Source: Closterium sp. NIES-65 (taxonomy: Eukaryota; Streptophyta; Zygnematophyceae; Desmidiales; Closteriaceae). From it: a DNA stretch of 64,000 nt. The position numbers were made by a program, and so were the translations under genes. The stretch spans positions 1,612,001 to 1,676,000 of the forward strand of contig CANXME010002181.1 of assembly GCA_948144175.1 (NCBI GenBank), read 5' to 3'. How positions within the stretch are numbered: the first letter of the stretch is position 1; each line of letters starts with the position of its first letter. This document shows, piece by piece, positions 4,580 through 58,833 of the stretch. The notes under the pieces were generated by a model. The model saw only the letters and a list, made by a program, of their open reading frames with translations. It was not told where the DNA came from and searched no databases.

Positions 4580-4865
4580 AAACTACGAATGCTACCCTTG
4601 TTGTAGTTCATTTATTGTTAAAAATGCTTGAATGATTACAAGACAATATGTTTAAAATTACAAATGGACGCCAAATTGACATCACGAGTCGCACTCGCCT
4701 ATCCTTCCACGATTTTCCTTGCACAATTGCTTGTCACAGCATATCTTCTTACCAGATGCTGCGAACAATACCAACCTTGTCTAGCATGCTTCTATATTGT
4801 TACATGCTTGAATGATCACAAGAAACCATACTTAAAATAACAAATGGACAAATGGACATCTATAT
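4580..4865. repeat. Diverged satellite monomers, left edge of the array
   Basis: Two related segments begin near ATGCTTGAATGATTACAAG (4623) and ATGCTTGAATGATCACAAG (4805), 182 bp apart. They match the period of the core array and resemble the diverged segments on its right side (6514-6545 and 6903-7130). Confidence 0.6.
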
Positions 4866-6358
4866 CCTATTACCTAGCCATATGAACTGATTTTATCTCG
4901 TTAGCACAACTACGCAGCACGTGGCGCTTGTTTGTGCGCTTGCTGGCCTGAATCTGTGCAACGATAGGCCTGTGCGCAACATGTCACTGCGCCAACGCCT
5001 GGATGCCCTTTTTACCACTATTTCTTCACACAGTTGCCTACTACATCCTATTACATGGCCATAGGAACTGGTTTGACCTCCTTCGCACAACTACGCAGCA
5101 CATGGCGCTTGTTTGTGCGTTTGCTGGACTGAATCTGTGCAACGATAGGCCTGTGCGCAACATGTCACTGCGCCAACATCTGGATGCCCTTTTTACCACT
5201 ATTTCTTCACACAGTTCTCTACTACATCCTATTACCTAGCCATAGGAACTGGTTTGACCTCGTTCGCACAACTACGCAGCACGTGACGCTTGTTTGTGCG
5301 TTTGCTGGCCTGAACCTGTGCAAGGATGGGCCTGTGCGCAACATGTCACTGCCCCAACGTCTGGATGCATTTTTTACCACTATTTCTTCACACAGTTCAC
5401 TACTACATCCAATTACCTAGCCATAGGAACTGGTTTGACCTCGTTCGCACAACTACGCAGCACGTGACGCTTGTTTGTGCGTTTGCTGGCCTGAACCTGA
5501 TCAAGGATAGGCCTGTGCGCAACATGTCACTGCGCCAACGTCTGGATGCCCTTTTTACCACTATTTCTTCACACAGTTGCCTAATACATCCTATTACCTA
5601 GCCATAGGAACTGGTTTGACCTCCTTCGCACAACTACGCAACACGTGGCGCTTGTTTGTGCGTTTGCTGGCCTGAATCTGTGCAAGGATAGGCCTGTGCG
5701 CAACATGTCACTGCGCCAACATCTGGATGCATTTTTTACCACTATTTCTTCACACAGTTGCCTACTACATCATATTCCCTAGCCATAGGAACTAGTTTGA
5801 CCTCCTTCGCACAACTACGCAGCACGTGGCACTTGTTTGTGCGTTTGCTGGCCTGAATCTGTACAAGGATAGGCCTATGCGCAACATGCCACTGCGCCAA
5901 CGTCTGGATGCAATGTTTACCACTATTTCTTCACACAGTTCACTACTACATCCTATTACCTAGCCATAGGAATTGGTTTGACCTCGTTCGCACAACTACG
6001 TAGCACGTGACGCTTGTTTGTGCGTTTGCTGGCCGGAACATGTGCAAGGATAGGCCTGTGCGCAACATGTCACTGCGCCAACGTCTGGATGCCCTTTTTA
6101 CCACTGTTTCTTCACACAGTTGCCTACTACATCCTATTACCTAGCCATAGGAACTGTTTTGACCTCCTTCGCACAACTACGCAGCACGTGGCGCTTGCTT
6201 GTGCGTTTGCTGGCCTGAATCTGTGCAAGGACAGGCCTCTGCGCAATATGTCACTGCGCCAACGTCTGGATGCCCTTTTTACCACTATTTCTTCACACAG
6301 TTCTCTACTACATCATATTCCCTAGCCATAGGAACTGATTACATCTCGTTAGCACAAC
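4866..6358. repeat. 181-bp satellite array, eight monomers
   Basis: The marker GGATGC recurs at 5001, 5182, 5363, 5544, 5725, 5906, 6087 and 6268, exactly 181 bp apart each time. Monomers differ by a few substitutions. Because 181 is not a multiple of three, each unit produces a 60-100-codon ORF in a new frame, and these ORFs are not genes. The length is in the range of many plant centromeric satellites, but one short array does not show centromere function. Confidence 0.92.
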
Positions 6359-12938: not shown

Positions 12939-15900
12939 ATGGAACAGCATCAAGAAGCTGGTTGGGTAAACGCTTCCCAACCAGACGATGAGCCGGCAGA
13001 TGTTAACGACACGGATCTGCCAAACGTACCCGAAGGTGTCGACCTTACGGGCGAGGCTCATAATGAGGAGTACTTCGAACCAGTCGAAGTCTTAGATGTC
13101 GAGCAGGACATTCTCGCAGATGGAAGGCAAGCTGTCGAAGAGGAGGACAGGGAGAACGAGCGATTTTACAACGCTCCGGAGGAGCTAGGAGCTACGGGCG
13201 TCGAGCCACCAAACGTACCTGACCTCAATGCGCCGCCGACTTGCGACGGAGTCCAAGGGGAGCACCCTAAGGAAGTTGATCTTTCTGACGAAGATGGGGC
13301 AAGCGGGTCTTCCACGAGTGGGTTGCCAGCATCAGACGGTGGGCGTTGGGGTCCGACAACGGATTTTCGTCAGCAGAATCCGCAGGCAGATTGGAGAGAC
13401 CCTGTCAACATCCCAGCATCGGATAGCGGGCATAGGGGTCCGACAACTGATTTTCGGCAGCAGAATCCGCAGGCTGAGTGGAGGAACCCGGTCAACATCC
13501 CAGCGTCGGACAGCGGGCATAGGGGTCCGACAACGGATTTTCGGCAACAGAATCCGCAGGACGAGCGCAGCAACCCTGTCAACAACCCAGCATCAGCCGG
13601 TGGGTTCAGAGATCAGACAGCGGGTTTCCAACGTCCAATACACAGGACGAGCGGACGGACCCTTTCGACCGCCCTCTTGCACCCAACGTCGAACGTGAAG
13701 AGGGAGGGACGGATACCCGCCGGCGCTTAGACTGGGATCCAGACCAGCCTGTTCCTGGTATCCGCCCTGAAATCGCAATGACACGAGAGAAAAAGGAAGC
13801 AATCACTCGAGCATGGAAGCACGTGATTGCACGTAGGGATCAGACGAACAACTGCTACGTGGGTTGCTGGTGGTACTACAAGAGATGGGTCTTCCTGCTG
13901 ATGGCACAGTTGCTCGATGTTCCGGATGAGGAGAGGCTGGACCCCGGAAACCCGGACGAAATTGGGATATTTCTGGGCGACAACAGGGGACAGGCCTGGG
14001 ACGGCGTGGCGAAGAACGAATCCCACCTGCACGGGCCGAAGCTGACTTTGTGGCGGCTATGTCGTTTCATGGAGTACCTGTTCAACGAGACAGAGGACCA
14101 AGCGAAGAAAATGCGGGAAGGTCGTCAGATGCATGCGGGGAAAGTGCCGAAGGCTTGCACACCTTCCATGCTGAAGGCGAAGATGAACGCGATGAGTTGT
14201 CTCGGAGAGATCGAAGGACGCCTTTTCAGCTACTCTCCCTCTCGTGTGACGGACATGACGAGGGAGGCAAGGGGTTTGCTTCGAATCAAGCTAGCCAACC
14301 TCAGCAACAAGCAGATCGAGTGAGAGAAGTACATGATTGGTTTTTCGGGTACCTTTGTGTTGCTAAGACGCTCACATGTTTGTTTCTGTTTGTTGCAGCG
14401 AGGGTTTTGAACAGACGCGCGGATCACTGAACGACGTGTACACAGCAGCGCAGTACAGGGATCTGTTCCACAAGGTTCTGCCCGAATGGAGGACAACATA
14501 CTTCCGCGCCAGCGTGCATTTCCTATCCGAGGGATTGTGGAGGGTTCTGGCAGTGTCCGTCATGATCATGCTGGCGCATCAGATGCTGGGCAGAGGGTGC
14601 AGTATCCGCTCCCTACGATTTGCCAACATGTACGTCTACGAGACTCGCAGCACTTCTCTCCACGACGAGTTTCTAGACCTTCCAGTCATGGTGTTCGTTT
14701 CTCGACAGACGAAGAACAATCCCACGAACCGTTTGTCCCACCAGTATGTGGCCAGGCACATCGACTACAGGCGGTGCGGATACGGTGGTGTCTTTCTGTG
14801 GATCCATTTCCTGTACGACCTTGTCGAGGTCCGATACAAGAAAAATCTCATTCCACCGTTGAAGTTCGACAAGAACACGGACTGGTTCAAAAAACACATC
14901 TTTTTCCCGATCAACAAGCACACCGACAGATCACCCCAAGAGCAGGACCCGATAGAATACAAGACGCACAACAATTGGATTGGCTGGACGATGGGTAAGG
15001 CGGGATGGTCGTCGAGCAAAGTGACCCACATCTTTCGCAGGTCCGGGGCGCAGGGTCTCAGCGACGACCGGTGCCCTGACGCCCTCATTGCGAAGCTGGG
15101 AGGATGGGAGCAGGGAGAGATGCGGAGGTCGTACCTGTTGGGCGTGCCTTTCGAGCCGGTGCTTTTGATGGCGGGCTTTTCTGGCGATCCCGGGGACTAC
15201 TACATCGGCAGAGCACATGCCAGACTAGCGGACGACACCGAGTGGGAAGAACTCCAAGAATTGTTCCGAAAGCACATCTACCCATGGCTCGAAGAGGAGA
15301 TGACCAAGGTGCGTCATGAGAGCTGGCTTCTTCGTTTTCTCGATTTTGTCTCTTCAACTGTTTCCGTGGCGTTTCGCAGGTCGAAGTGTTCAACAAAGGC
15401 AAGAAGTCGCACGAGAAAAAGCTATCGGCTGAGCAGTTTCTGAAGGCCCTCCGTGACCATGGGCGCGCAACGGTTGCTCAGGACCTTGCGATGTTTTGGA
15501 TATTTTGCGAAAACCCCAAGTGCGAGAAAGAGTTCACTGGTGAAGGGCGTGCGTGCGAGTGTACCCGTCATCCATACGCTGAGATCTCGCCTCTCTGCAA
15601 GGAGCCCTTGTTTCAAAAATGGGCCAACATTGTCGCGAACATGGACGAAGAAGGTCGACGTCTTCGGAAAGATGTTGGCCATTCTGCAAAAGCGGTAAGA
15701 ATGGTTTCTCTGTGCGGATTGTGTTGGTGACATCCTGAGCCCCGCGATTGACATTTGGCGTTTCACGGGTGCAGGATGCCATCTACCGACTCCAAGGAAC
15801 CCAGAAGATGACCAAGCTGCAACTCCAAAACCAGGAGCTCATGGAGAATGCGGGAAGGCTGACGGCGGAGAACGGTCAGTTGAGGATGGAGAACAAGAGT

Positions 15901-16380
15901 CTTCACGAAGAGCTTGAGCTGGTGAAAGCGGCGTTGGCGGCATTGCAACGGGGTGACGACGCTCCGCCCTGTGTTGCGTCGAACGGAGGGTCTGCCGATC
16001 CAAAGACGGAGGTTTGCGACGAGAAGCCCGTGGTGGAAACTAAACAACGAGAGGCTCAGAGGCTGTATTTCGCGGCTGTCCTCGCCCCATGGCTCACATG
16101 CAGCACGCTCTCGGACGCGTGGAAGCTTTGGGACCGGGGCACTGGTAGGATGGACGGCAGGACCATCCGCGATCTGGCGAAGTCTGGAGACTTTCTCGCA
16201 ACGTACTCCGAGTATGGGAACCAGACACTTCCCAAAAACACGCGTTCCAAGCAGTTGGGCCGAAGGAGGAATCAGATGCTCACCATCGACAGTTTGCGAC
16301 CAGATGACTCTGAAGCCGCGACTGCCTATGCGTTGGAGCTCGGTGACTGGTTGCTAGGGCAGTCATCGGAGAGCTCGTGA
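12939..16380 (+). pseudogene. Crypton-type tyrosine recombinase with GCR1_C-like domain (one frameshift)
   Basis: Four exons: 12939-14319, 14399-15308, 15380-15694 and 15775-16380, with introns of 79, 71 and 80 nt. Adding one base lost near 13620-13635 gives 1071 codons. Residues 1-250 are acidic and include 29-residue repeats. The middle resembles the Ndc10/Crypton tyrosine recombinase fold, with likely catalytic residues Arg531 (SIRSLRFANM), Lys566 (RQTKNNPTNR), His671 and Arg674 (THIFRRSGAQ), Trp697 (LGGWEQGEM) and nucleophile Tyr706 (RRSYLLG). Residues 870-929 form a coiled coil. Residues 978-1045 (TLSDAWKLWDRG, later LGRRRNQM) resemble the GCR1_C DNA-binding domain. Such enzymes cut and rejoin DNA to mobilise Crypton transposons. 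Domain calls are by resemblance only. All other splice sites and frames are intact, so the lesion is recent or an assembly error. Confidence 0.8.
13328..13640 (+). repeat. 87-bp (29-codon) tandem repeats in the recombinase gene
   Basis: The segment GPTTDFRQQNPQ recurs every 87 bp (nucleotide markers at 13351, 13438 and 13525), with a degenerate fourth unit. In the fourth unit one base is missing compared with the others, which is the frameshift in this gene. Confidence 0.9.
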
Positions 16381-16931: not shown

Positions 16932-18027
16932 ATGGCGGAGACGGTAAACGCGTTGGGGAAGCAGAATGCGGTGCAGAGGCCATTTAGGTCGTCTGGTTTT
17001 TTTACTAGACGCACGGCTAATGGCGAACTAATTTTTGGGGCGAACCAGTTTGTGGGCGGGAGACGGCGCAGCATGGGAACCCACATCGATGTACGGAGTC
17101 GCAATTTCACTGTCGCCATATGCTTAAAGGCGTACTTTCCAGATACGGACTTGCTTGCGTACGGCATTGGCCACGATGACGTGATTGCATGGAGAACCTC
17201 CTTGATGTACGCAGAGCGAATGCCAACGGGGATGTGGAGTGTGTTGCACAACCTGAAGGTCGACAGAATCGATAAGTGAGGACGGGGTTTCTTGTATGCA
17301 TACTTGGGTAATGAGAGGTGTATATCTCACTCGAAGCAGGTTCGGCAAATTACACAACTGCCCCTGATGTGTCCGTTGCTTGCGTATTGTCTTCTGGTTT
17401 CCTTGACCCTTCAGCTTCAGGACGTTGGCTAATACAGTCGCATGGCGCCAGATGGCGGGGGACGATATAGTGACAGCACTCTGTGTCGCAGCTGGGCGCA
17501 CTGTGCTGGACGCCGAGGGGCGCGGCGTGCCCCATCCGTTGTTTATATCGACAGAGTTGTTTGCAGCCGGCGTTACAGCTGCGCTCTACACGCTAACAGC
17601 AGCGTCATTGGGCCATTCTTCGCTGTCGTACACCAACCGCGCCAGAACAGCTGTTTGCTCCGTTATAAATGACACCGTGATAGCCAGTCGTGCTGCAGAG
17701 TCAGCACGGATAGCCATTGGTCTGATGCGGTGTATCCCGGATGTCCAACTCAACGGTACGACATGGACTGCGTTACTTGGACGAACCATAGTCGCGATTC
17801 AAAGTCCAGCGACTGATGATGTTGACGTGATACACCAAGCCTTCGTCGTCTCTGGAATTTTCGTGTCCTGGTGTGAATGTGGCCACGCCGCATCGAGCCT
17901 TGCCGCTCAGGCTCGTGGTTCTTTCAGATTCGGTGAGGGTCGATTGGGTCATGGCTCTTCGTCACGCGAATTGATTTCAAACTGGCTGTATAGTGCTGCT
18001 GCCGAATGCTGGATCATTCCATACTAG
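16932..18027 (+). CDS. B-form family protein (B1), intact, function unknown
   Basis: Two exons (16932-17275 and 17421-18027, 145-nt intron in phase 2) encode 316 residues. I do not recognise the family. The N-terminal module has RPFRSSGFF (16-24), GGRRRSMG (42-49), a RNFTVAIC then YFPDTDLLAYG segment, and PTGMWSVL before the intron. The C-terminal module is helical and hydrophobic (LFAAGVTAALYTLTAAS, from residue 161) and ends with a conserved WCECGHAASS, so it may be membrane-associated. Exon 1 has exactly the length (344 nt) of the B2 and reconstructed B3 exons. The same two modules form the C-terminus of the long L1 and L2 genes. The ATG at 16932 gives an MA start as in B2 and B3. Confidence 0.75.
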
Positions 18028-44173: not shown

Positions 44174-45197
44174 ATGGCGGTGTTGGTGGACGCGGTGGGA
44201 AAACAGCATGCGGTGCAAAGGCCATTCAGGTCACACTGTTGTTTCTCTCGTCGAACATCCTCCGGAGACGTAGTTTTCTGTTCCGTGCAAACAGTCGGTG
44301 GAAGAAGGCGCAACATGGGAAACCACAACAGCGAACATAGTCGCAATTTCACAGTCGCCATATGCTGGAAAGCGTACTTTCCTGATACGGACTTGCATGC
44401 GTACGGTCTGGCTCCCGAGCATGACAATTTTTGGCCAACCGCCATGACGTACGCAGAACGACTTCCAACGGGGATGTGGAGTGTGTTGAACAGGCTTCAT
44501 CTCGACAGAATTGAAAAGTAAGGAGGGGTATCTCGCACCACACCTGACGTTCACACCCGTCGATTACTACCTGAAGTTTGCCGTTCTTTCCCATTTCAAC
44601 AGCTTCAGGACCGTGGTGAACACAACCACATGGCGCCAGTTCGCAGGAGACCGATTTATAACAGCAATCAGCGTCGGAGCCGGCCGCACTGTGCTGGACG
44701 CCGAGGGTCGCGGCGTGCCGAATCCGCGATTTATATCGAGGGAACTGTTCGCGGCTGGAGTTACAGCTGCTCTCCACACGTTAACCGCAGCGTCAGTGGG
44801 AGCTTCTCCTCGATCGTACGCTCGTCGCGCCAGATCAGCAGTTTGCAGCGTTATCAACGATAGCGTCATAGCCAATCGTGCTGCATTGTCTGCAGGGATT
44901 GCCATGCGTTTGATGCGGTGTCCCCCGTATGTCGAATACAATGGTCCGACGTGGACTGCCCTGCTTGAACGAGCCATTTTCGAAATTCAGGATCCTGCCA
45001 CAGTCGATGACGACGTTAAATATCAAGCCTTGGTCGTCGCTGGAATCTTCGTTTTCTGGTGTGAATGCGGACACGCCGCATCGCAACTGGCCGCTCAGGT
45101 AGGCGGTGCATTCGTTTTCGGTGAGGGTGGCATGTGTCAGGGCCCTTCGTTTACCGAGGTGATAACAAAATGGTTGATTAGCGCTGGGGCCAATTGA
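44174..45197 (+). CDS. B-form family protein (B2), intact, function unknown
   Basis: Two exons (44174-44517, 344 nt, and 44609-45197) with a 91-nt phase-2 intron give 310 residues. Text parallels B1: RPFRSHCCF, GGRRRNMG, FTVAICWKAYFPDTDL, PTGMWSVLN before the intron, then LDAEGRGVPNP, LFAAGVTAALHTLTAAS and WCECGHAASQLAAQ. The hydrophobic C-terminal segments suggest membrane contact, but this is inference. The middle of exon 1 differs from B1 at many positions without gaps, so the two copies are old or fast-evolving. Start chosen at the first ATG, giving the same MA-x(5-7)-GK opening as B1 and B3. Confidence 0.75.
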
Positions 45198-45630: not shown

Positions 45631-45804
45631 ATGGCCGCCCAGTTCAACGCGCTCGGAAAGGTACGTGGATTGGCGAGGCCATTCAGGACGGCTGGTTTTT
45701 ACACGCGTTCCAGGAGCATGCGGGAGGATCTGTTCTGCGCGGAGCAGTTTGTGGGTGGTAGAAAGCGCAACTTGGGTGTCCACCTCGACGAGGCTCATCG
45801 CAAC

Positions 45805-46310
45805 TGTTAGGGTGGTTCGCCACTGCCCTAGTGTCTACTGGCCTACGCGCCTGACCTAGGGACGGTAGATGAACTCTAGGAACGGTGGGAACTACGAACT
45901 AATGTGGGGAACCGATGCCTAGATCGGTGGGACTGAAAACGAGGAATCTACGGGAGGAAAACGTGAGGAAAACGGGGAGAAACAGAATGTTGGAGGATTA
46001 GGGTTCGCGAAATGTCGAGAAGACATTTCCGAAGCCTAGAAATGTCCAACCGAAACCGAACCGTGTTCGGTGCAGAAGGGTTTCGGTTCCGGTGACGGTT
46101 ACCGAAATCGGTTCCGCGTGCGACTCGAGCTGAAACGCGGATGACGCGTTACGCGAGGCGCACATCACAATTCGAAATGCTTAAATGTGTTTGTTTTCAA
46201 TCAGTTCTTTGTACTTCTCTGTTTTGAGTGAAATCAGTCTTGGGAAACCAGAATTCTCTTCAAGCATTTACTACCTTCAACGCTAGCCGGAGGCTATACC
46301 CAAACTAAGA
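45805..46310 (+). repeat. E5 5' LTR
   Basis: Starts TGTTAGGG and ends AACTAAGA, not the canonical CA. The two following bases GC also occur in the target duplication, so the end could be two bases later. It contains a short inverted repeat GAAATGTC...GACATTTC (46010-46040) and several CGGTT/AACCG words. Confidence 0.9.
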
Positions 46311-46312
46311 GC

Positions 46313-46324
46313 TGGTATCAGAGC
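46313..46324 (+). other. E5 primer-binding site
   Basis: TGGTATCAGAGC is complementary to the 3' end of plant initiator Met tRNA (established for plant Copia elements). Confidence 0.9.
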
Positions 46325-46412
46325 TTGGTTCTCGTCGCGTCGAGCCTCGTTATAAAAGCGTTGGAGGCGTTATAATTTTTTAGAGTATTGAAACGGGCGA
46401 TTATTCAACGAC

Positions 46413-49400
46413 ATGGGGAAAGGAGATGGAGAGGCCAGTTCGGGGTCCTCTGTGAACACTGACGGTGTGCAGCTGCAGAGTCTGCTCGATGCCCTTGCCA
46501 AGGGGCAAATCGTGGCCAAACCGACGATTGGCCTAAGTGAAGCTCAACGCTTCAATGGTGAGAACTTCGGCACATGGCGACTGAAGTTCATGAGGCGCGC
46601 TCGGGAGGTAGATTTGTGGCACTTCTACAACCCAGAGGCAGCGACGGAGGACGACGGACTTGCACCTGCAACCGCACAAGAGAAGAAAGCGTTTAAGAAG
46701 AGAAGCCAACAAGCTTTCTTTCAACTCTGCCACTCGGTCTCGGATGCGATCGCGGCACGACTCGACCCGTTCTCTGAGGAGGACAACGCAGCAGAGAAGG
46801 CGTGGACGTACATGGAACGAGTGTACCTCGGGAAAAGCGAGGCAAAGATGACAGCAGTGAGGACGAAACTCATATTGCTGGCCATGGAACCTTCCGAGAC
46901 GGTGGTGGACTACGTGGGCCGTGCTAAAGGCTACAACGACGACCTGACGGCTATGGGAGTGCCCGAATCGGAGAAGCAAATGATGAGCTACATCATTGGC
47001 GGCCTACCGAAATCATGGGCAGCAGAGAAGCGGATGCTGGCCTGCAGACGCCCGACGGACATGACGGACCTAGTGGAGTCCCTTCAAGACGTGGCGCTTA
47101 TACGTGCTGAGGAAGAGCGAAGGGAGGCGCTGCCGGACAACTTCAGCAACGACAAACCTGCCATGTTGAATGCAACCGGGGCGGGGAAGGCATTCGGGGC
47201 TTGCTTCCACTGTGGGAAGAAAGGGCACAAGGCTGCAGAATGTTACTCCAACCCAAAAAGCAAGAATTTCAAAGGAAAGGCAGCAGGAGCAAGCGGAGAA
47301 GGGCAACGACCGAGAGGCGGATTTGCTGGAAACTGCAACCACTGCGGGAAATTTGGGCACAAAGCAATCGACTGCTACAGCAACCCGATGAGCAAGAGCT
47401 TCAGGGGAGGGCAGCAGCAGCAAAGGAATCACGTACCTGCGAAGATCAACGCCACCGAAGCGGAAACCAGCGACGACGACGTCATCCTCGGTGGAGCCCA
47501 CAAGGCCAATGTTGCAAGAGCATCCGGAGCATGCCTGCTTGCAAAGGGCCTTAAGGGGAAGGAGCGGTACATGGACAGCGGTTGTACCCAACACATGACG
47601 AACCGGAAGGAGTGGCTGCAAAATTTCAGAGCATCACCGATCCCGTACATGCTGTTGGGTGACGAGGGAAAACTTCCTGTGAAAGGCGAAGGAGACCTAG
47701 TGCTGCAAAGTGCTTATGGTGAGGTGAAGCTGGACAACGTGCTGCTGGTGGACAAGCTCACACTCAACCTCATTAGCCAATCTCAGCTGGACAGCGGTGG
47801 ATGCAAGACCTTCAGTGATAAGGGCAGCATATGGGTGTTCGGTTCGGATTGGAAGGTGATAGCTGAGGGATCACGCAAGCAGGGGTTGTACGAGATGAAG
47901 CTGCACGAAAAACAGAGTGGGGACAAGGTCACATACCTGACTGAACCGGAAGCGGGCAAGGTGGCTCGAGATGAGCTTCGTACCAAGCTGGAAAAGGTGC
48001 CTATTAAGGAGTTGCAGCAGCAGGCGCTTCCTATGGCAGCAGTAGTGAGCACGGTGGACGTCAACCTGCTGCATAGGAGGATGGGGCACGCTGGTCATTA
48101 TCGAATCAAGGAGCTGATTAAGAAGAACATGGCAGCGGGAGTGAAGGTAGCTGAGGGTGGAGAGGAAAATCTGAAGTGCAGCACATGCGTGGAAGCAAAG
48201 GCAACAAAGGCGCCACATCCCAAGCATTGAGCTCGTGAGCTGTACGAGACGCTGGCTATTGTGGCAGCCGACGTATGTGGACCGATGAGGGTGGCTTCAC
48301 GACATGGCAGCAAGTATTTCGTTACCTTCACCGACCTCGGCACACGACACACGTGGGTGACGGAGATCAAGAACAAGTCGGAAGTCTTCACGAGCTTTCT
48401 CGATTGGCAAGCGGAAGCGGAAAGGCAAAGCGGCAAGAAGCTGAAAGTGTTACGCATGGACAACGGGGGAGAATTCGTCAACGCCGAGTTCAACACGTAC
48501 CTGAAGTCAAAGGGCATACGAAGGCAGCTCACGGTCCCGTACACACCTCAACACAACAGCATTGCGGAGCGGGTGAACCGATCACTGCTGGAGAGTGTGA
48601 GGAGCTTGCTCGCGGACAGCAACCTGCCTCTACACTACTGGGGAGATGCGCTAGGAATGGCATGTTGGCTAAAAAACCGGCTACCGACAAAGGGACTAGC
48701 GGCGGACGTTACCCCTCACGAGGCGTTCTACAAGAGGAAGCCGAATCTAGAGTTCTTACGCGTTTGGGGCTGCATGACGCAATACCGTGAGGCGACGGGA
48801 CCCGATCACAAGCTTCTCCCAAGGACCAAGTGGGGGATCCACTTGGGAATCTGCCCGGAGAGCAAAGGGTGGGTCATACGCGATGTGGAGACCGGGAAAG
48901 TCACTGCGACCAGAGATGTTACTTTCTACGAGAGTGACACCTACGTGGAGTGGAAGAAAAGGAAACAGGGAGCTGTGGTAAAGGAAGCGGCAGCAGCACC
49001 AACTCCAGTGGAGGAGATGATAGATGGGAGTGAGAAGGAGGGGATAGGGGCAGCAAATGGCAGCAGTGACAACGATGACTACGAAGACCACACTACACCA
49101 GGATTCGATTGGGTGTGGGAGGTTCAGGAGCTGCCCCCACCTTCAACTGCTGTGGAAAAGAGTGCAGAAGAAAAGGATAAGGGAGGAGAGACGGGTGACA
49201 ACTCAACGGCTGAAGCGGGTGAGGAAGAAGCTGAAATTTCTGCTGCGGAAGAGAGTGTGGCTGAATCTGCTAGTACGAGCTCCTCCGACCCATGGCGCAT
49301 CATTGACACGGGGAACAACAAAAAGGCGGTAGCAGAGATTGAAGACCTACTTGCGGATGGTGCTATCATCATCGGAAGGGCGATTGAAGGAGATACCGTG

Positions 49401-51267
49401 CAACAAGGAGCGGAAGAAAATGCAGCAGCAGAAGAAGGTGGAGCTGAAAAGGAGCATGAGGAGATGGGCAAAGGGAAACGGGTCAAGAAACCCAATCCCA
49501 AGTATGCCCAAATGCTTCTGACCTGCTGCAAGGACATCCACACCCACCTCCTCCTTACCACCACAGCAACAGCGTTACTATCAAAGGGGAAGGTGGAAAG
49601 CTACAAGCTGCCCACCGAGCCTCTCACCATTGAAGAGGCGCTGTCCGGGCCGGACAAGGAGCAGTGGAGGGCTGCAATCCAGGAGGAACTCGATACATTG
49701 GCTGAAAGGGGGACATGGGAGCTTGTGAACATGCCCGAGGGGAGGAAAGCAGTGGGGGTGCGCTGGATTTTCAAGATTAAAACGGGAGACATGGGACAAC
49801 TTGATCGTTTCAAGGCACGACTTGTTGCTAAGGGCTACACACAGGTGGAAGGAGAGGACTATGATCAACTCTACGCACCCGTGAGCAAGTTAGCAACGGC
49901 AAGGACCATGCTAAAGGTGGTGACGGCACGTGGGTACTTCATGGTGCAGCTGGACATCAAAAATGCCTTCCTCTATGGCATTTTGAAGGAGACTATCTAC
50001 ATGAATCAGCCACCGGGGTGCGAGGACGGCACGGACAGAAAGTGCAAACTCATTAAAGCACTTTATGGGCTGAAACAAAGCCCACGGGAGTGGTACCTAG
50101 CTATGGACGCGCAGCTGGAAAAAGGGGGGTTCAGCAAGAGCCAATGTGACCGTGCATTCTACTGGAAGGGAGAGGGGGAGAACAAGGAGTTCCTACTCCT
50201 CTACGTGGATGATATCCTTGTGGCTGGAGCAAAGGAAGAGAAGGTGGAGGAGGTGTGCACTCACCTCGCAGCTGTATTTCAAGTGAAGAAGATTCCAAGG
50301 ACCACTCTCTTCCTTGGAATGAACATGGAGTGGAATAGGGAGGAGAAGAAGTTGCTGCTATACCAGAAGAAGTACTTTCAGAGGTTGCGGGAGAGGTTTG
50401 GAGAGCAATGCAAGCCCAAATCAGTGACAACACCTCTCAGCAGCCTTGCGGACAAGGAGGTCGATGTGGGAGCAGAAATGGAGGCATGGGGCAGCAAGGA
50501 GAGGGCGCTGAAAGCTTACCAATCCATGGTAGGCTCAGTCATGTACCCGGTGTCATGCACACGGGTTGATGTGGCAGCGGGTGTTGCAGCCCGAGGGACG
50601 CAAGTGGAAGGAAATGGAGAGGACTATCACTTACCTCCTGCAGCGGGACGATGAGGGGCTGCTGTTTGAAGGTGGAGAGGAGAGCCTAGAGCTAGTGGGG
50701 TATGCTGATGCCTCACACGGATCAGACAAGATTGATGGGAGGGGAGCCTATGGCTATGTCTACCTCCTTGGTGGAACGGCAATCATGTGGCAAGCCAAGA
50801 AGCTCACCGACGTCGCTCTGTCCACCACGGAGTCTGAATACATGGCGCTGTTTTTTGCATGCCAAGAGGGTGTGTGGCTGAGGCGCCTACTTCAGGAGAT
50901 GGGGGTCAACGTGGACGGACCTACAACGATCAAATCGGACAGCAAATCAGCAATTGACCTCGCACGAAACGACAACTGGCATGGGCGCACGAAACACATG
51001 AACGTGCGGTACCATTGGGTACAGGAGCAGCTGCAGAAGAAGGCATTCACCTTCGTGCATGTGGGAACACATGAGCAGCCAGCGGATTTCCTCACCAAGG
51101 TGCTGCGAAAGGCAAACTTCGAGTTTTGCAAGTATTTTGTCGGCATACGTACCTTGCAGGACTTGCGGGGGAGCAGCGGAGCAGCAACCCGAGATGTTAC
51201 ACCGTCGTACGGACAAGCTCAGCAAGAGAAGAAGAAGGCTGGTTACATGGTAACCACGGGAGCATAG
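46413..51267 (+). pseudogene. E5 gag-pol polyprotein, one stop and one frameshift
   Basis: ATG 46413 opens a gag of the UBN2 type (FNGENFGTWRLKF). Two canonical zinc knuckles CFHCGKKGHKAAEC (from residue 264) and CNHCGKFGHKAIDC follow, then protease (YMDSGCTQHMT) and pre-integrase (LLHRRMGHAGH). TGA at 48228-48230 interrupts the frame where an Arg codon is expected. The same frame continues with integrase (MDNGGEF, NSIAER), reverse transcriptase (LLYVDDILVAG) and the start of RNase H. Near 50585-50600 a small out-of-frame deletion shifts reading. The RNase H end (YADASHGSD, TESEYMAL, GRTKHMNVRYHW) is readable in the next frame to TAG at 51265-51267. Not functional as it stands. Confidence 0.92.
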
Positions 51268-51299
51268 GAGAGTGGCAGCTGGCAAACCACGGGGGAGAT

Positions 51300-51805
51300 T
51301 GTTAGGGTGGTTCGCCACTGCCCTAGTGTCTACCGGCCTACGCGCCTGACCTAGGGACGGTAGATGAACTCTAGGAACGGTGGGAACTATGACCTAATGT
51401 GGGGAACCGATGCCTAGATCGGTGGGACTGAAAACGAGGAAGCTACGGGAGGAAAACGTGAGGAAAACGGGGAGAAACAGAATGTTGGAGGATTAGGGTT
51501 CGCGAAATGTCGAGAAGACATTTCCGAAGCCTAGAAATGTCCAACCGAAACCGAACCGTGTTCGGCGCAGAAGGGTTTCGGTTCCGGTGACGGTTACCGA
51601 AATCGGTTCCGCGTGCGACTCGAGCTGAAATGCGGATGACGCGTTACGCGAGGCGCACATCACAATTCGAAATGCTTAAATGTGTTTGTTTTCAATCAGT
51701 TCTTTGTACTTCTTTGTTTTGAGTGAAATCAGTCTTGGGAAACCAGAATTCTCTTCAAGCATTTACTACCTTCAACGCTAGCCAGAGGCTATACCCAAAC
51801 TAAGA
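51300..51805 (+). repeat. E5 3' LTR
   Basis: About 98% identical to 45805-46310, without length change. Confidence 0.93.
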
Positions 51806-52811
51806 GCAACTTCACGGTCGCCGTTTGCTGGAAGGCGTACTATCCAGATATAGACATGCTGTCGTACGGGATGAACCCGGAGCAAGTCAACGCCTGGCCG
51901 AGGTATCTGCTGTTCGCGGAGCTTATGCCAACGGGCATGTGGAGTGTTCTTAACGAGCTCCATCTTGACACCTTTGATAAGTGAGTGGCATGAAACGCAC
52001 TGTTTTCCGCAAATTAGGAGTGCTGTTGTAGATGTCGTGGGTCTTGTTATGTAGCTTACATCAATCCCTTACGTTGTCGGTCCCCGTCACCCATCCCTAC
52101 CATAGTTTCCGGGACTTCGTGGCAAGGGCAGAATATCGCTTGAGGGCAGGGGACGGTATGATGACTGCACTCTGCGTCGCTGCAGGTCTCACTGTCATGC
52201 ACACTCAGGATCGCGGCGTGCATCGTCCGCGAGATGTATCCCCAGTCCAGTTCGCTACAGGAGTCACATCTGCCCTCTACACGCTGTCCGCAGTGTCCAG
52301 GGGCGATCCTCCACTAACATACACAACTGGAGCCCGAGCAGCAGTTCGCATCGTCATCGATGACATCGTCATTGCCGATCGTGCTGCTGAGTCAGCTCGT
52401 ATTGGCATAGTTGCTATGCAGAGTCTCGCCGGTGTTGTACATGGCAAGTCTAGATGGGTTACAGTTCTGGGAGAAGCCATTTCCGAAACACAAGATCCAG
52501 GAGGGCTCAACGAGTGAAAATGCTTGCCAGAGTGGTTGCGTCAGTCATTGTTTACTGGTGTGAATGCGGACACGCAGCAGCACGACTAGCCACACAGGCT
52601 GGCACTTCCCTTAGCTTCAGTGTTCGTCGTATAGGTTAAATGCAGAGGTGAGGGATCCTAATTGGCCATGTTCCCGTGGTTTGTGTTATGGTTTCAAGTG
52701 TACCATGCGGAGCTGCTTGTACATGGACGTATCAAATTTGTAAAACAATCTGATGCATTAGATGTTGGTATTCGTAAGTGCGCCGAGCGGCTGACAAGCT
52801 GGAAGTCTAGT

Positions 52812-55800
52812 CTAGGGGAAGCACAGAGAGTGCTTCAGAAACTTTTGGAGACTACTCGAAGAAACATTGCACTGGCACCAATAGACTAGTGCACGTGCCG
52901 CTGTCCTGGATAGCGGCATAGCGGTGGCGTGTGCGCTGTCACTCAGCATACTTTTGATTCTTTCTGCGAGAATGGGAATCCACCCGGTCTTATCGTGCGA
53001 CTCGTTACCCACGCTTGTGAGAGCGGTTGGTATGCAGACGGCAGCATTGGCAACCCTGGTCGCCTCCAAGTCGTCAGGGATCGTGGTTGTAGCCACGTCT
53101 AAAGCCTTCTCCTTGAGACCGTGAAGGGGCGCTCCGACAGACGCCATCCACAACACGTAGATGGAAGCCGCCAAACCAGACCCGAGAATATCGGGGTTGA
53201 CACCCTTTGGGGACGCGACGCAACCTGCACTAATCGCCGAACATCCGATTCCCGCGCACACCGCAATCTCCCATGGCACACCTTGAAGAACTCGCTCGCT
53301 CGTCTTTGAACAAATCATGCGGAACCTGCAAAGGAGGCCACAAACGAGGTGAGTAGACAACGCCACAATCGCCGTAAAACTTCGTACCATACGTACTGGT
53401 CGTATTGGTCGAGTGTCAGCTCGTTCAAGACACTCCATACACCAGTGGGTATACGCCTTGCCAAGTCCAGCTCCTCCCTCCATTTCTGAATGTCAGCGGC
53501 GTCGATCCCGTAGCATCGTAGATCCACGTCCGGGAAATATACACTCCAACAGACAGCGGATATGAAATCTCGCTTCCACTTTTCCGTGTGACAGCCCATG
53601 CTTCGCTTCCGACCCCCCACTGTCTGCTCAGACCGGAACTGATCTGCGTCAGTACCCTTGCGCCTCACACTAAACCCGCTGCTGCAAAACGGTTGCTGTA
53701 CTCCTCCTTTCTTGCCAAGCCTGTCTGGAACCACGATGGAATGATCTTGTGCTTCCACATGCTCACCCTCAGATTCCACCACCGCCCCTGTAAAGGTAAA
53801 CGGCGGTTTTGTCCCCAGGACCGCCCTTAGCGTACTGATAGGTCGATCTTCGTCGATGACGGCTTCATCGTCGTCACTGTACTGGTTCAGAAAGTCCATG
53901 ATTCCTTCAAAAGTCAGCACGGTCCGCGTGACGTTGGCGTCCGTCTGTGTATCTGCGATTTTCGGTTTGCTGGCACGCCCGTCCTTTTTGTTCGCCCGTC
54001 CAACCGTGCCCTCCAAGTCTCTTTTCACGCCTCCTCTTGCTGTCAACCCCGTATCTTTGAAAACCGCCCTTCGATATGCTACATTAGCGCGTTCAGTCCC
54101 ACCCTCAGTATGGAACCTCCTTGGCTGCTTCCCATCGGTATCGAAGGAGACTGCACCCTCAGCTTCTATTCCAGCGTCGTACGTACTGCATGTGGCCTTG
54201 TCTGTGCCGTCGGTGTGATATGCCAATTGGCCCGCATCGTGGCGACGGACGCCCGCAGCTAGTCTCTCACCTACTTGGCTCAGTAGATCCGTCTTCATGG
54301 TTTCGAAGCAAGTATGGAACTCCGCCGTTAGGCCTTCAACACATTTTACAATGCATCGTGTCGATTCCCTCTCAAACCGCGCCAACGATTCAGGATGCAG
54401 TTGCAGTCTGATACCACCATTCTGTGCCGTCTTGTCAATCGCCGCTGCCACTAGATCATCCACGGTGGTGACAAGTGTTAGCATCGCTGACTTGTCGTCG
54501 ACTTCTGCGGATCTCCCTGCTGAATCGTTTAACTTGGATGCATCTGCAAGCTTTGGGACATTATCAGCGGCCAAGTTACGCTGTCGTTCTCCCACGGTTC
54601 CACAATTGCTAATGACGTTTCCTGACGCGAGTACGACTGTTGAGGGGGTGCAGGCTTGGTTGGGACTATTCGATGCATGGGCTGCACAGTCCAACGCACC
54701 GGTGGAGTCGCCCAACGGGTTGTTAACGTTCGCTATGTCATCGAAGAGTGGCTTTAGCGAGGCCACAAGATCCACAAGTATGCTGTCCTTGGACAGCCGT
54801 CCGCGACCCAAGAGGAGCGACTCATTCGAGTTGAGGTTGAGGATGTAATCCCATCTATCTAGTAACTTCCGCCACTCTTAAATCACATGCAGTGCTGATC
54901 CGGCCGACGTCATCGATACTCCGTCCGATGGTCTCTGCGCGAACATTGCCAAGGTGTTTATCCACAGTTCACATTTTCAGAAACCAACCAATAGCACCCG
55001 AATCTACCTTGGCGTCCAGTTGCAGTTCGGTCAGGTAGTTTTCCATGTCGCGCACAACCGCTTGGGCGTGACTGCTCGACACGCTGTTACCGCCAGTGTA
55101 TTCAACTACGAATTGGCGCTTAAGCCACCTGGGTCGGGGGGGGTGCCAGAACAAAACATACGTTAGGAGCGGCTGGAAGGTCGATCGCTACGTTAGCATG
55201 TACGCAAATCTCACTGGAATACGCTGGATGCATGCTCGGCGTGCTTGTGCGTTAAGACAGTCCCTTTTGGATCATAGTGGATCGCCCGGGTGCGGTATAT
55301 TCCTCGCGGCTGCGCAATCAGATCGTCCGGATGAATAATGACGATCATGCTTACGTGCGCTTTTGGCGCGACACCGTGCCTGTCAAACAAAAGAAAAGGG
55401 TTATGGGACCTCGTAATAGGGTATCGAGAAACCACCCGAATTTTGTATACCAACCACTCACTCCGTGTGCAGCGGAACCACGACGATGTCTTTCGACAAA
55501 AGTCCAACGAGTGATGGTAGTCCTAAGGGCTTTAAAGGATCTCGTTCTTTTGCCTCGGTAACCACCGTCGACGATATGATGTGCAGTTTATCCAATTGTT
55601 GCGGGTGTAGTACAGTTGTCGCCTGCTTTCTGCAACGACCAACATAAGGTTGTTACACATCTCCATATGGACCACGACAATCTACGAAATACTTACAAAA
55701 CTGCGTAGTCGAGCAAAGGAGCTGGCCATTCGGACTTGCTGTTTTGCAAAAGTAAGTATAGCGCCCTGTCCACTGAAACATCGACACCACAACCCGCCAC

Positions 55801-56351: not shown

Positions 56352-58701
56352 TTACTTGGTCTTCGATTTGTCGATAGCACCAACGACTTTCTTCTTTGAT
56401 CCCCGCTTTGATGGAACAACCTCCAGAACCACACCCAGGTGTTCTCTGAGACCAGCCGTAGCAACCGAGCACTGGCACCAGTAAACTATGACGCGCAACG
56501 CCACTCTCGCCAGTGTCAAGGCAGAATCGTGCGTGCTGTCTTCCATTAGACTCTGAATCTTCTCCGCCAGAAGAGGGATCCACTGATGCTTGTCGCGAGT
56601 GACGTTTGCAAAACTAGTCACTGCGCCTGGGATACACGAAGCAGCCTCAGCGGCTTTGGTGTCCACTTCAGTGTCGTTTACAGTGGCCTTGGCAGCATTC
56701 ATTGCGACGTCTTTCAATGGCTCTTGAGGGTTTCCCATAGAACCGAACCACAAAACACTGAGAGACGCGGCCACCGCTCCAAAGATCAAAGCGTTGACTC
56801 GAGTTGGGACCGCGCCACTCCCTTTCAGTGTTGCAGCAAAACCTATTCCCGAGCATAGCGCAATCTCCCACCGAACCCCCGCGTTGGCGCGCTCATTCGT
56901 CATCGCCAAGACGTTTACGAAACTGCACCATTCAAAAACATCGCTAACATTGAGGTATGTGTATTGTATCGACAACTCAAAATGCGCCAGACTTACTTGT
57001 CGTAGCGGTCGAGCGTGAGCTCGTTCATCACGCTCCAAACGCCAGTTGGAATTCGCTTCGCTAGCGCGAGCTCTACATGCCACTTCTCGACGTCCGTCTT
57101 ATCCATTCCGTAGCAGAGGAGGTCAACATCCGGGAAAAAGACACTCCAGCAGACCGCGATCGTAAAATTCCTGCGCCACTTTTCCGTGTAGCACCCCATG
57201 TTGCGCCTTCGCCCACCGACCGTCTGCTCCGAAAAGAACTTGGGCTGCGGTGAAATCTTTCTGCCTGACAAAGAAGCCGCCCGATCGGAAAGGTCTACTT
57301 ACCCCAAACTTTTTGCCCAACTTGTCGGGGACGATGTTGGAATGGTCCTGTACCTCAACATGCTTACCATCCTTTTCCTCCGAAATTTCGGGCACTGCTT
57401 GAGTCTGCTGCGCCCCGTCTACTTTCGGGATGTTCCCGATAGGGTCGTCATCTTCTTCCTCGTTCCAGTCAGGCATATTCGCTTGCAGGTAGCGCATTAC
57501 TCCATCCAATGTCAGCTTATGTTCCCCTTGCTTATCGGCGTCATTTGCTGCTCGCGGAATCTTGGCCGGCGGGGTTGTTTCCGTCTGCTTTGTGGGGCTC
57601 GGTGGCCGTTTTCCCCCATCCAAGCCGGTCACTGGCACGTTTGGTGCCGCCGCCTCCATGACCTTCTCAGAGCCATCGGGCACAGCATCGGCCTCTTCGC
57701 CAAACTCCCACTTGGACAGTACATGTTCTGCCGCTCTCAGTGACGACCCAGGTGACTCGTCATCTCTCTTGGTCTGCCTCTCGTGTCCAGATGGAGGCTC
57801 TGCGCAAACTGGAGGCGGCCGCTTCTCGCCTTCCGTAGGCGGGACAACCACGCCAGAAGCATTCAGCTTTTCCTCGATAAGCTTCAAAACCTCTGTTTTG
57901 AGGACTTTGAATCCGGTGGAGATCTCTTGTCGGATCGATGCTACAGCCGCGTCTATGCCTTTCTTAACAGCCTTCTCCACGGTTTGCAGTACGTCGTCTG
58001 GCAGAGTCACAAGGAAACGGCCCTCGCTTGTGGCCTTAACCAGCGACGCAGAGACCGCCGCATCCACCATTTTACCGAGCTCGCTCATCATCAGGTTGGG
58101 CCCCATTGCCACACCATGAGCTGCGGTCGATGGTTTGCTGTCCGCATCCACCGGACGCAGTGGCTCGTCGCCCTTGAGAATTAGCGCGTCCTTCATGGGT
58201 CCACCATCTTGAGGAGCCGAATTTGGAACGTGTAGTGTTTGGTTCGATGATCCAAGCATTTTTTGTGGCCCACCCGATACCGCTGCTGCTGCTGCACCCT
58301 TCTCGTTCGCGATCAGCCGATCTCTCAATTCAGCACGCAAGGCCTCCTTCAGTTCCTCATGAATCTCGGCTTTGCTGAGACGACCAACTCCGAGGTGTAC
58401 TTTCGTGTTTGGTGGACAATCCAGGATGTAATCCCACTTGTCGAGTATTTTGGTCCACTCGTAGATCACATGAAGACCCGATCCAGCCTCCGATTTGGGC
58501 ACGCTAGCCTTGGGCGTCTGCATGTACAGAAAGAACGTGGTTAATAACGACCTTATAGCCAACGGGCACGCCAAATGTCTCAATACCTTTTCATCGAGAC
58601 GTAACTCTGACAGCGACTTTTTCATATCGATGATTTGCTCTTGAGCCTGCTTTGATGGCTGTTCGGTGCCGTCTGTGAACTCAACCACGAGTTGCCGTTT
58701 A
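56352..58701 (-). pseudogene. Long A+B family gene (L2), 5' end cut off by E6, one frameshift
   Basis: What remains is part of exon 4 (58701-58587, KRQLVVEFTDG and ELRLDEK), exon 5 (58517-56997) and exon 6 (56922-56352), introns 69 and 74 nt. Exon 5 has HVIYEWTKILDKWDYI, GRLSKAEIHEEL, a long Ala/Glu/Lys linker with coiled-coil character, then RPFRSGGFF. Near 57240 one extra base shifts the frame before FFSEQTVGGRRRNMG. With it removed, exons 5 and 6 are 697 codons, again a whole number. Exon 6 ends in YWCQCSVATAG and a Lys-rich tail. E6 is inserted in exon 4, so exons 1-3 lie beyond it, outside the window. Function unknown. Confidence 0.8.
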
Positions 58702-58833
58702 TGTGAAAGAGAGAACGAGAATGGAATGACTATGAAAGAAGTGAGTACAAATAGGAAACCCTAATTGGGTTGTACCCCCTATGGGATACCCCACTATAGC
58801 CTACACAATAGTATAAGCTATATAGTTCTGACA
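58702..58833 (-). repeat. E6 3' LTR
   Basis: On the minus strand it begins TGTCAGAACTATATAG and ends TCTTTCACA, 132 bp. Confidence 0.9.

Follow-up and report, generated by a model that had tools for sequence, protein, structure and literature searches.

Probable Crypton-like tyrosine recombinase transposons with a convergent second gene in the alga Closterium

Introduction

Cryptons are DNA transposons that encode a tyrosine recombinase (YR) and are bordered by short direct repeats; in CryptonF elements the YR is joined to a GCR1_C domain (PMC3212892). The same survey lists Cryptons from fungi, animals, oomycetes and one diatom, describes some oomycete members with a second gene encoding a C48 peptidase, and mentions a candidate Crypton-derived gene in a green-algal mitochondrion. 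The paper on the Closterium NIES-64 genome, in which repeats make up 64.4%, does not contain the word Crypton (PMC10407611). We found no Crypton element of green algae or land plants in the open-access literature searched, a search that did not extend to subscription papers, bioRxiv or Repbase. Here we describe a YR gene in a 64,000-nucleotide stretch of DNA from Closterium sp. NIES-65, a green alga of a group near the land plants (C1883:1612001-1676000, hereafter the window), analysed together with the whole assembly (874 Mb, 2400 contigs). With a probability of roughly 0.85, the gene is a decayed member of a Closterium family of Crypton-like DNA transposons of 9-16 kb that carry a YR gene and a convergent second gene.

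Results

The window encodes a tyrosine recombinase

The YR gene of the window is split into four exons by introns with GT..AG borders (14320-14398, 15309-15379 and 15695-15774), and its layout, like that of its relatives, comprises an acidic N-terminus, a core-binding domain for which a homologue is modelled with a Cre-like fold, an Ndc10-like catalytic domain, a coiled coil and a C-terminal domain (Table 1). Exon 2 carries the complete R-K-HxxR-W/H-Y set of the tyrosine recombinases in the right order, six residues out of six: R70, K105, H210, R213, W236 and Y245, with codons starting at 14607, 14712, 15027, 15036, 15105 and 15132. Every motif sits where an earlier note, made from the letters of this DNA alone, had placed it. 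Among 28 Closterium sequences, gaps excluded, these residues are conserved in 23/24, 25/27, 27/27, 26/27, 28/28 and 28/28 cases, respectively. The Pfam profile NDC10_II matches exon 2 with E values of 1.1e-5 to 1.5e-5 (25.1 and 24.6 bits), just under its cut-off of 26.3 bits, which is passed by the two genomic families A (41.3 bits) and B (46.7 bits) described below. Phage_integrase also gives a match under its cut-off (E 0.012-0.015), which stops exactly at Y245. These NDC10_II matches, in the genome of a zygnematophyte alga, bear out the earlier proposal of an Ndc10-type YR in the plant lineage. The tyrosine recombinase in the window is real.

A PDB sequence search with exon 2 returned nothing at E <= 1, and with the family profile the best matches were coiled-coil proteins. 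In the AlphaFold model of the homologue P0004 the core-binding domain matches the Cre fold, at 13-15% identity. A Foldseek search with the complete model gave no match at E <= 0.001, the catalytic part being poorly modelled (pLDDT under 50). Ndc10 is absent among the structure matches listed for this model, which says little because the catalytic domain is modelled so poorly. The predicted coiled coil is supported by sub-threshold Pfam matches, by the coiled-coil matches of the profile in the PDB and by a long helix in the P0004 model.

Searched as protein, the spliced gene matched 27 database entries, every one of them from Closterium. The best match, P0001 of Closterium sp. NIES-64, is 100% identical over the aligned part; this public gene model omits exon 3 and the part of exon 2 that includes the HxxR motif. 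A relative in strain Naga37s-1 shows 81% identity (83% and 91% over the two main segments). Three database proteins (P0046, P0060 and P0075) fuse the YR with retrotransposon domains (PF07727, PF00665) and are nested insertions or gene-model errors. A viral origin was also considered and set aside, exon 2 having no close relatives in the viral contig collection. In a profile search that requires shared 5-residue words and scored the 8000 best word-sharing candidates, 62/62 hits were from Closterium, which does not imply absence of fungal or oomycete relatives. A FastTree tree built from 28 Closterium sequences places the window copy as sister to L004 and P0003 (support 0.935); in it P0066, P0067, P0069 and P0072, from NIES-64 and NIES-65, form a third, more distant YR family, in which P0066 stands for 51 member sequences.

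Families A and B are multicopy elements with defined ends

Searching the genome with exon 2 gave 130 scored matches from 956 candidates, a lower bound. The match closest to the window YR among them is 59-61% identical. Twenty copies were fetched, ten of family A (YR about 54% identical to that of the window) and ten of family B (about 45%). Within families the copies are nearly identical: in their main blocks the other nine A copies are 96.1-98.6% identical to L009, and in the main block the other nine B copies are 95.8-97.3% identical to L019, with lower values near the left end. Compared directly, L028 and L020 are 94.5% identical. The pairs L012/L013 and L026/L027 probably represent duplicated regions, since their flanks are shared.

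A sharp left end against the flanks was seen in all ten A copies and in 8/10 B copies; that of L023 and L025 was not found. Right ends were mapped by comparison in two copies of each family, as GGATTTCTA-GG in family A and GGTCTTC-CC in family B. A 20-base pattern of the B right end occurs 61 times in the genome, compared with 0 for the reversed control. The four copies read end to end measure 15,884 and 15,451 (A) and 9,544 and 9,339 (B) bases, and all run in the order left end, YR gene, convergent second gene, right end. CC is present at both ends in 10/10 B copies for which both were read; GG is present at the left end in 10/10 and at the right end in 2/2 A copies. The earlier note had suggested looking for multiple copies with short direct repeats at their edges, and such copies exist. 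The repeats, however, are not the published 4-6 bp of Cryptons: just 2 bp are common to both ends in the copies read.

Comparison of the coding sequences fits purifying selection on the catalytic exon while copies spread. In the ten A copies exon 2 contains no stop, with a synonymous divergence (pS) of 0.0092, a nonsynonymous divergence (pN) of 0.0020 and a ratio of 0.21, corresponding to a mean per pair of 1.9 synonymous and 1.4 other differences. In nine ungapped B copies, one of which has a stop, pS is 0.0269, pN 0.0052 and the ratio 0.19. Constraint is weaker in exon 1 (0.68 in 8/10 A copies) and in the last exon (0.45 in 9/10 A copies and 0.34 in 2/10 B copies). All these ratios come from non-independent pairs with few differences and carry no significance test, and the B reference overruns the exon by a few codons. 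Finally, a Pfam scan at E <= 0.01 covered 16 open reading frames (ORFs) of the two families, though not every small or antisense one. NDC10_II was found in both YR exons, with no reverse transcriptase or capsid domain; the sole other signal was a sub-threshold TetR_C_14 match within the coiled coil. As a positive control, RVT_2 was found in both Copia ORFs of the window. Thus, over these ORFs, A and B are YR elements without a reverse transcriptase, as Cryptons are.

A family B insertion is precise

Both ends were read in ten B copies: C42, two on C1809, C2199, C2240, C1668, L028, L020, L019 and the second copy of the C2261 tandem. An eleventh, C842, was left out because its left end lies outside the fetched stretch. 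Since C42 shares its flanks with one of the C1809 copies, nine sites are independent. At the junctions the base following the left CC is G, T or A and that following the right CC is A, G or C.

The joined flanks of L028 identified three intact empty sites (97-98% identity over 115-116 bases), which read GCTAC-CC-AGCGAAAG, and the filled site reads GCTAC-CC-A-ATTATATA...GGTCTTC-CC-AGCGAAAG. A fourth empty site, at 79% identity, is likewise contiguous. Therefore insertion of the B element was precise, leaving CC at both ends and nothing else duplicated. DDE transposases duplicate their target; the L028 insertion has the form expected if a YR had recombined a circle with the target. At C2261, B copies lie head to tail at a spacing of 9,364 with a single CC at their junction, an arrangement that would fit a circle entering the end of a resident copy.

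For C2240, 40 places were scored out of 193 candidates in the flank search, two being the filled site itself. The other 38 are repeat copies that span the left flank, the CC and then 5-11 bases of the right flank. This high-copy repeat (C2240:212056 and the 38 other scored places) ends in a hairpin, GGGTTGCTACGCAACCC, followed by A's, and the B element lies at its end.

A second gene converges on the YR gene

In both families, A and B, a long gene on the opposite strand converges on the YR gene. It comprises a coiled-coil region that varies, a conserved domain of about 100 residues in which 23 columns are invariant (7 sequences compared), and a last exon rich in Ala. This second gene has no match in Pfam or the PDB, and its 9 database homologues at E <= 1, from the 7999 candidates sharing most words that were scored, are all from Closterium. 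An AP2/ERF reading of the conserved domain, prompted by the AP2 pattern, was dropped for want of Pfam or PDB support.

A genome search with this domain gave 150 scored matches from 331 candidates. Such a partner lies within 5 kb downstream of 88/130 YR copies, and 87 of the 88 pairs are convergent (41/56 A-like and 45/66 B-like copies, plus C139). In a control in which partner positions were shifted by 50-300 kb over 200 rounds, the mean number of linked YR copies was 0.47 and the maximum 3. Conversely, 42/130 YR copies have no partner within 5 kb, and 62/150 partner matches have no scored YR within that distance, a situation also seen in the window. Some of these partners are therefore remnants, non-autonomous forms or parts of elements whose YR copy was not scored.

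A possible resemblance of the C-terminal domain to GCR1_C

The earlier note had described the end of the protein as a GCR1_C-like tail. The W..LW..G..IR.L pattern is indeed present; its identity with GCR1_C is unproven. Pfam GCR1_C gave no match to window exon 4 at E <= 1, to 20 family members at E <= 0.1 (the C-terminal domain is missing from two of these, window exon 2 and P0012, and present in part in P0018, P0022 and P0023), or to the last exons of families A and B. A genome-wide scan with GCR1_C (PF12550) produced four partial matches over the cut-off, at L036 (C1988:106592-106687, minus strand), L037 (C2270:2144936-2145019, plus strand), C1862 and C1202. The L036 and L037 matches belong to another gene: they cover profile positions 4-36 of 80, a similar helical exon lies upstream in both, and no YR was found in the sequence fetched around them, roughly 3 kb that lies largely 5' of the matches. 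This gene may encode a plant-lineage GCR1_C protein. When a profile of 16 YR C-terminal domains was aligned by hhalign with L036 and L037 as a stand-in for GCR1_C, without a negative control, a single patch aligned, the W..W......G.S[LI]..L that was expected (P 0.017, probability 2.6%), too weak to count. The likeness of the YR tail to GCR1_C is thus suggestive and unproven, and as the tail is not established as GCR1_C, neither is membership of CryptonF.

The window copy is a relic

A frameshift, a lost C-terminal tail and rearranged neighbours mark the YR gene of the window as decayed. Exons 2-4 are open. The frame of exon 1 ends at 13730 and the coding sequence continues in another frame, which places a frameshift near 13.63 kb; an 87-bp tandem repeat occupies 13326-13594 in the 5' part of this exon. 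The earlier note had counted exactly 1071 codons after restoring one base. The arithmetic is right, the exons summing to 3212 bases with the stop counted, yet this length is no sign of completeness, because P0002 runs about 85 residues beyond the end of the window YR. The tails of five homologues were searched for downstream of the gene and left no trace there.

The partner-gene copy closest to the YR is 1.6 kb downstream and shares its strand; among the 130 YR copies that of the window is the only one with a same-strand partner within 5 kb. In the convergent orientation that the family typically shows, the closest copy (52812..54877) is 38 kb away. Partner-gene copies on both strands form a cluster, from 16.9 to 58.8 kb of the window and along C1883 to about 1.70 Mb, with one scored YR among them. 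A Copia-type long terminal repeat (LTR) retrotransposon, whose terminal repeats (45805-46104 and 51300-51599) are 98% alike, interrupts one remnant. The window also contains a tandem array with a 181-bp period (4860-6358). Family A carries an array of the same period near its right end (about 14.8-17.2 kb in L010 joined), and the two show no detectable sequence similarity. An Rfam scan of the window found nothing.

Table 1. Parts of the YR gene, partner-gene copies and the LTR element in the window (positions are those of the window).
Feature	Position	Strand	Remark
YR exon 1, 5' part; acidic low-complexity N-terminus	12939..13730	+	frame stops at 13730
YR exon 1, 3' part; core-binding (N-terminal) domain	13778..14319	+	P0004 equivalent modelled Cre-like
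YR exon 2; catalytic domain (R, K, HxxR, W, Y), NDC10_II	14399..15308	+	
YR exon 3; Cys/His stretch F.G.....C.C.RHPY, also in P0003 and P0013	15380..15694	+	
YR exon 4; coiled coil and C-terminal W..W..G..L domain	15775..16380	+	stop 16378-16380
Partner gene, conserved domain of 5'-truncated copy	16944..17273	+	same strand as YR
Partner gene, last exon of 5'-truncated copy	17416..17901	+	
Second + strand partner-gene remnant	44186..45104	+	conserved domain 44186-44509, last exon 44604-45104
Third + strand partner-gene remnant	45637..52636	+	split by LTR element at 45.8-51.6 kb
Copia-type LTR retrotransposon inside third remnant	45805..51599	+	RVT_2 and integrase domains
Partner gene with N-terminal motif, conserved domain and last exon	52812..54877	-	conserved domain 53399-53728
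Further partner-gene copy	56352..58760	-	frame broken within conserved domain

Discussion

We read families A and B as recently active elements that would have been moved by YR recombination. Under the published Crypton model (PMC3212892), which is the basis for the excision, circle and strand exchange proposed here, the recombinase would join the left and right ends into an excised circle. The circle would then recombine with a dinucleotide, CC in family B and GG in family A, which would be left at both ends with no other duplication, and a circle entering the end of a resident element would give head-to-tail tandems. The second gene could encode a DNA-binding or accessory partner in transposition, which is a guess.

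A domesticated host gene with a DNA-binding role, in the manner of yeast Ndc10 and Gcr1, would account for the absence of a near-identical copy among the 130 scored matches (the next being at 59-61%), for the 81% relative in Naga37s-1 and for the open exons 2-4. The exon 1 frameshift, the missing tail and the transposon debris around the gene argue the other way. Moreover, the window gene keeps all six catalytic residues, unlike the domesticated DUF3504 YRs, which lack most of them (PMC3212892); that the window gene was domesticated therefore seems unlikely. A reading in which the second gene stands outside the YR element, as a mobile element in its own right or as a host gene family, is improbable. 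The 62/150 partner matches without a nearby YR, and the five copies or remnants that surround a single YR in the window, would suit it. However, in families A and B the gene sits between the mapped ends, and it holds the same convergent position 87 times, in families whose YRs are about 54% and 45% identical to that of the window.

YRs are also employed by DIRS- or Ngaro-type retrotransposons and by viral elements, and green algae are among the hosts of DIRS elements. It is nonetheless very improbable that the Closterium copies belong to either kind, given that the 16 A and B ORFs hold no reverse transcriptase, capsid or other over-cut-off domain besides NDC10_II. Hardly credible is a Starship-like cargo carrier, for which the large size of a YR element with more than one gene could speak. 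DUF3435 is the Starship captain family; the match here is to NDC10_II, and DUF3435 is not among the Pfam matches listed. Furthermore, the 20 fetched copies align to their own family along most of the stretch read, and the four read end to end contain no variable cargo. We therefore retain the reading of the window gene as a decayed copy of a Crypton-like DNA transposon.

The evidence that the families are mobile is good: copies are nearly identical, ends are defined, empty sites exist and pN/pS is low. A eukaryotic YR transposon mechanism thus becomes testable in an alga. The conserved partner gene raises the question of whether such elements need a second protein. Tentatively, and with rather less than even odds in our judgement, the elements may form a separate two-component YR transposon superfamily of zygnematophyte algae. 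It would have an obligate second protein acting in target choice, circle maintenance or synapsis, a crossover that requires no more than a dinucleotide, and an Ndc10-like YR in common with Cryptons, from which its target rule and architecture would differ. If so, this lineage of recombinases would either have existed in the green-plant line already or have come into it.

Among known systems, Cre is a phage enzyme that acts as a single protein, and identity to it over the core-binding domain is 13-15%. Budding yeast Ndc10/Cbf2 shares catalytic-domain homology through Pfam NDC10_II. In that centromere protein the catalytic site has not been preserved (PMC3212892), whereas the Closterium residues are kept and the elements have spread. 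CryptonS elements of oomycetes and a diatom are, like those of Closterium, YR DNA transposons with a conserved C-terminus, in CryptonS one other than GCR1_C, and sometimes an additional protein; they differ, by description alone, in their 5-6 bp repeats, mostly TATGG termini and C48 peptidase. CryptonF elements of fungi and oomycetes share with the Closterium elements a YR DNA transposon without a reverse transcriptase, an Ndc10-like YR followed by a C-terminal domain, short direct repeats at the ends and, in some oomycete members, a second gene (PMC3212892). The Closterium elements differ from CryptonF in having a 2-bp CC or GG instead of 6 bp, a length of 9-16 kb, a green-plant host, a convergent second gene with no known domain and a tail not confirmed as GCR1_C. 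As far as their sequences can tell, the Closterium elements would work like Cryptons, from which they are set apart by the 2-bp repeat, the convergent unrelated gene, their size and their host.
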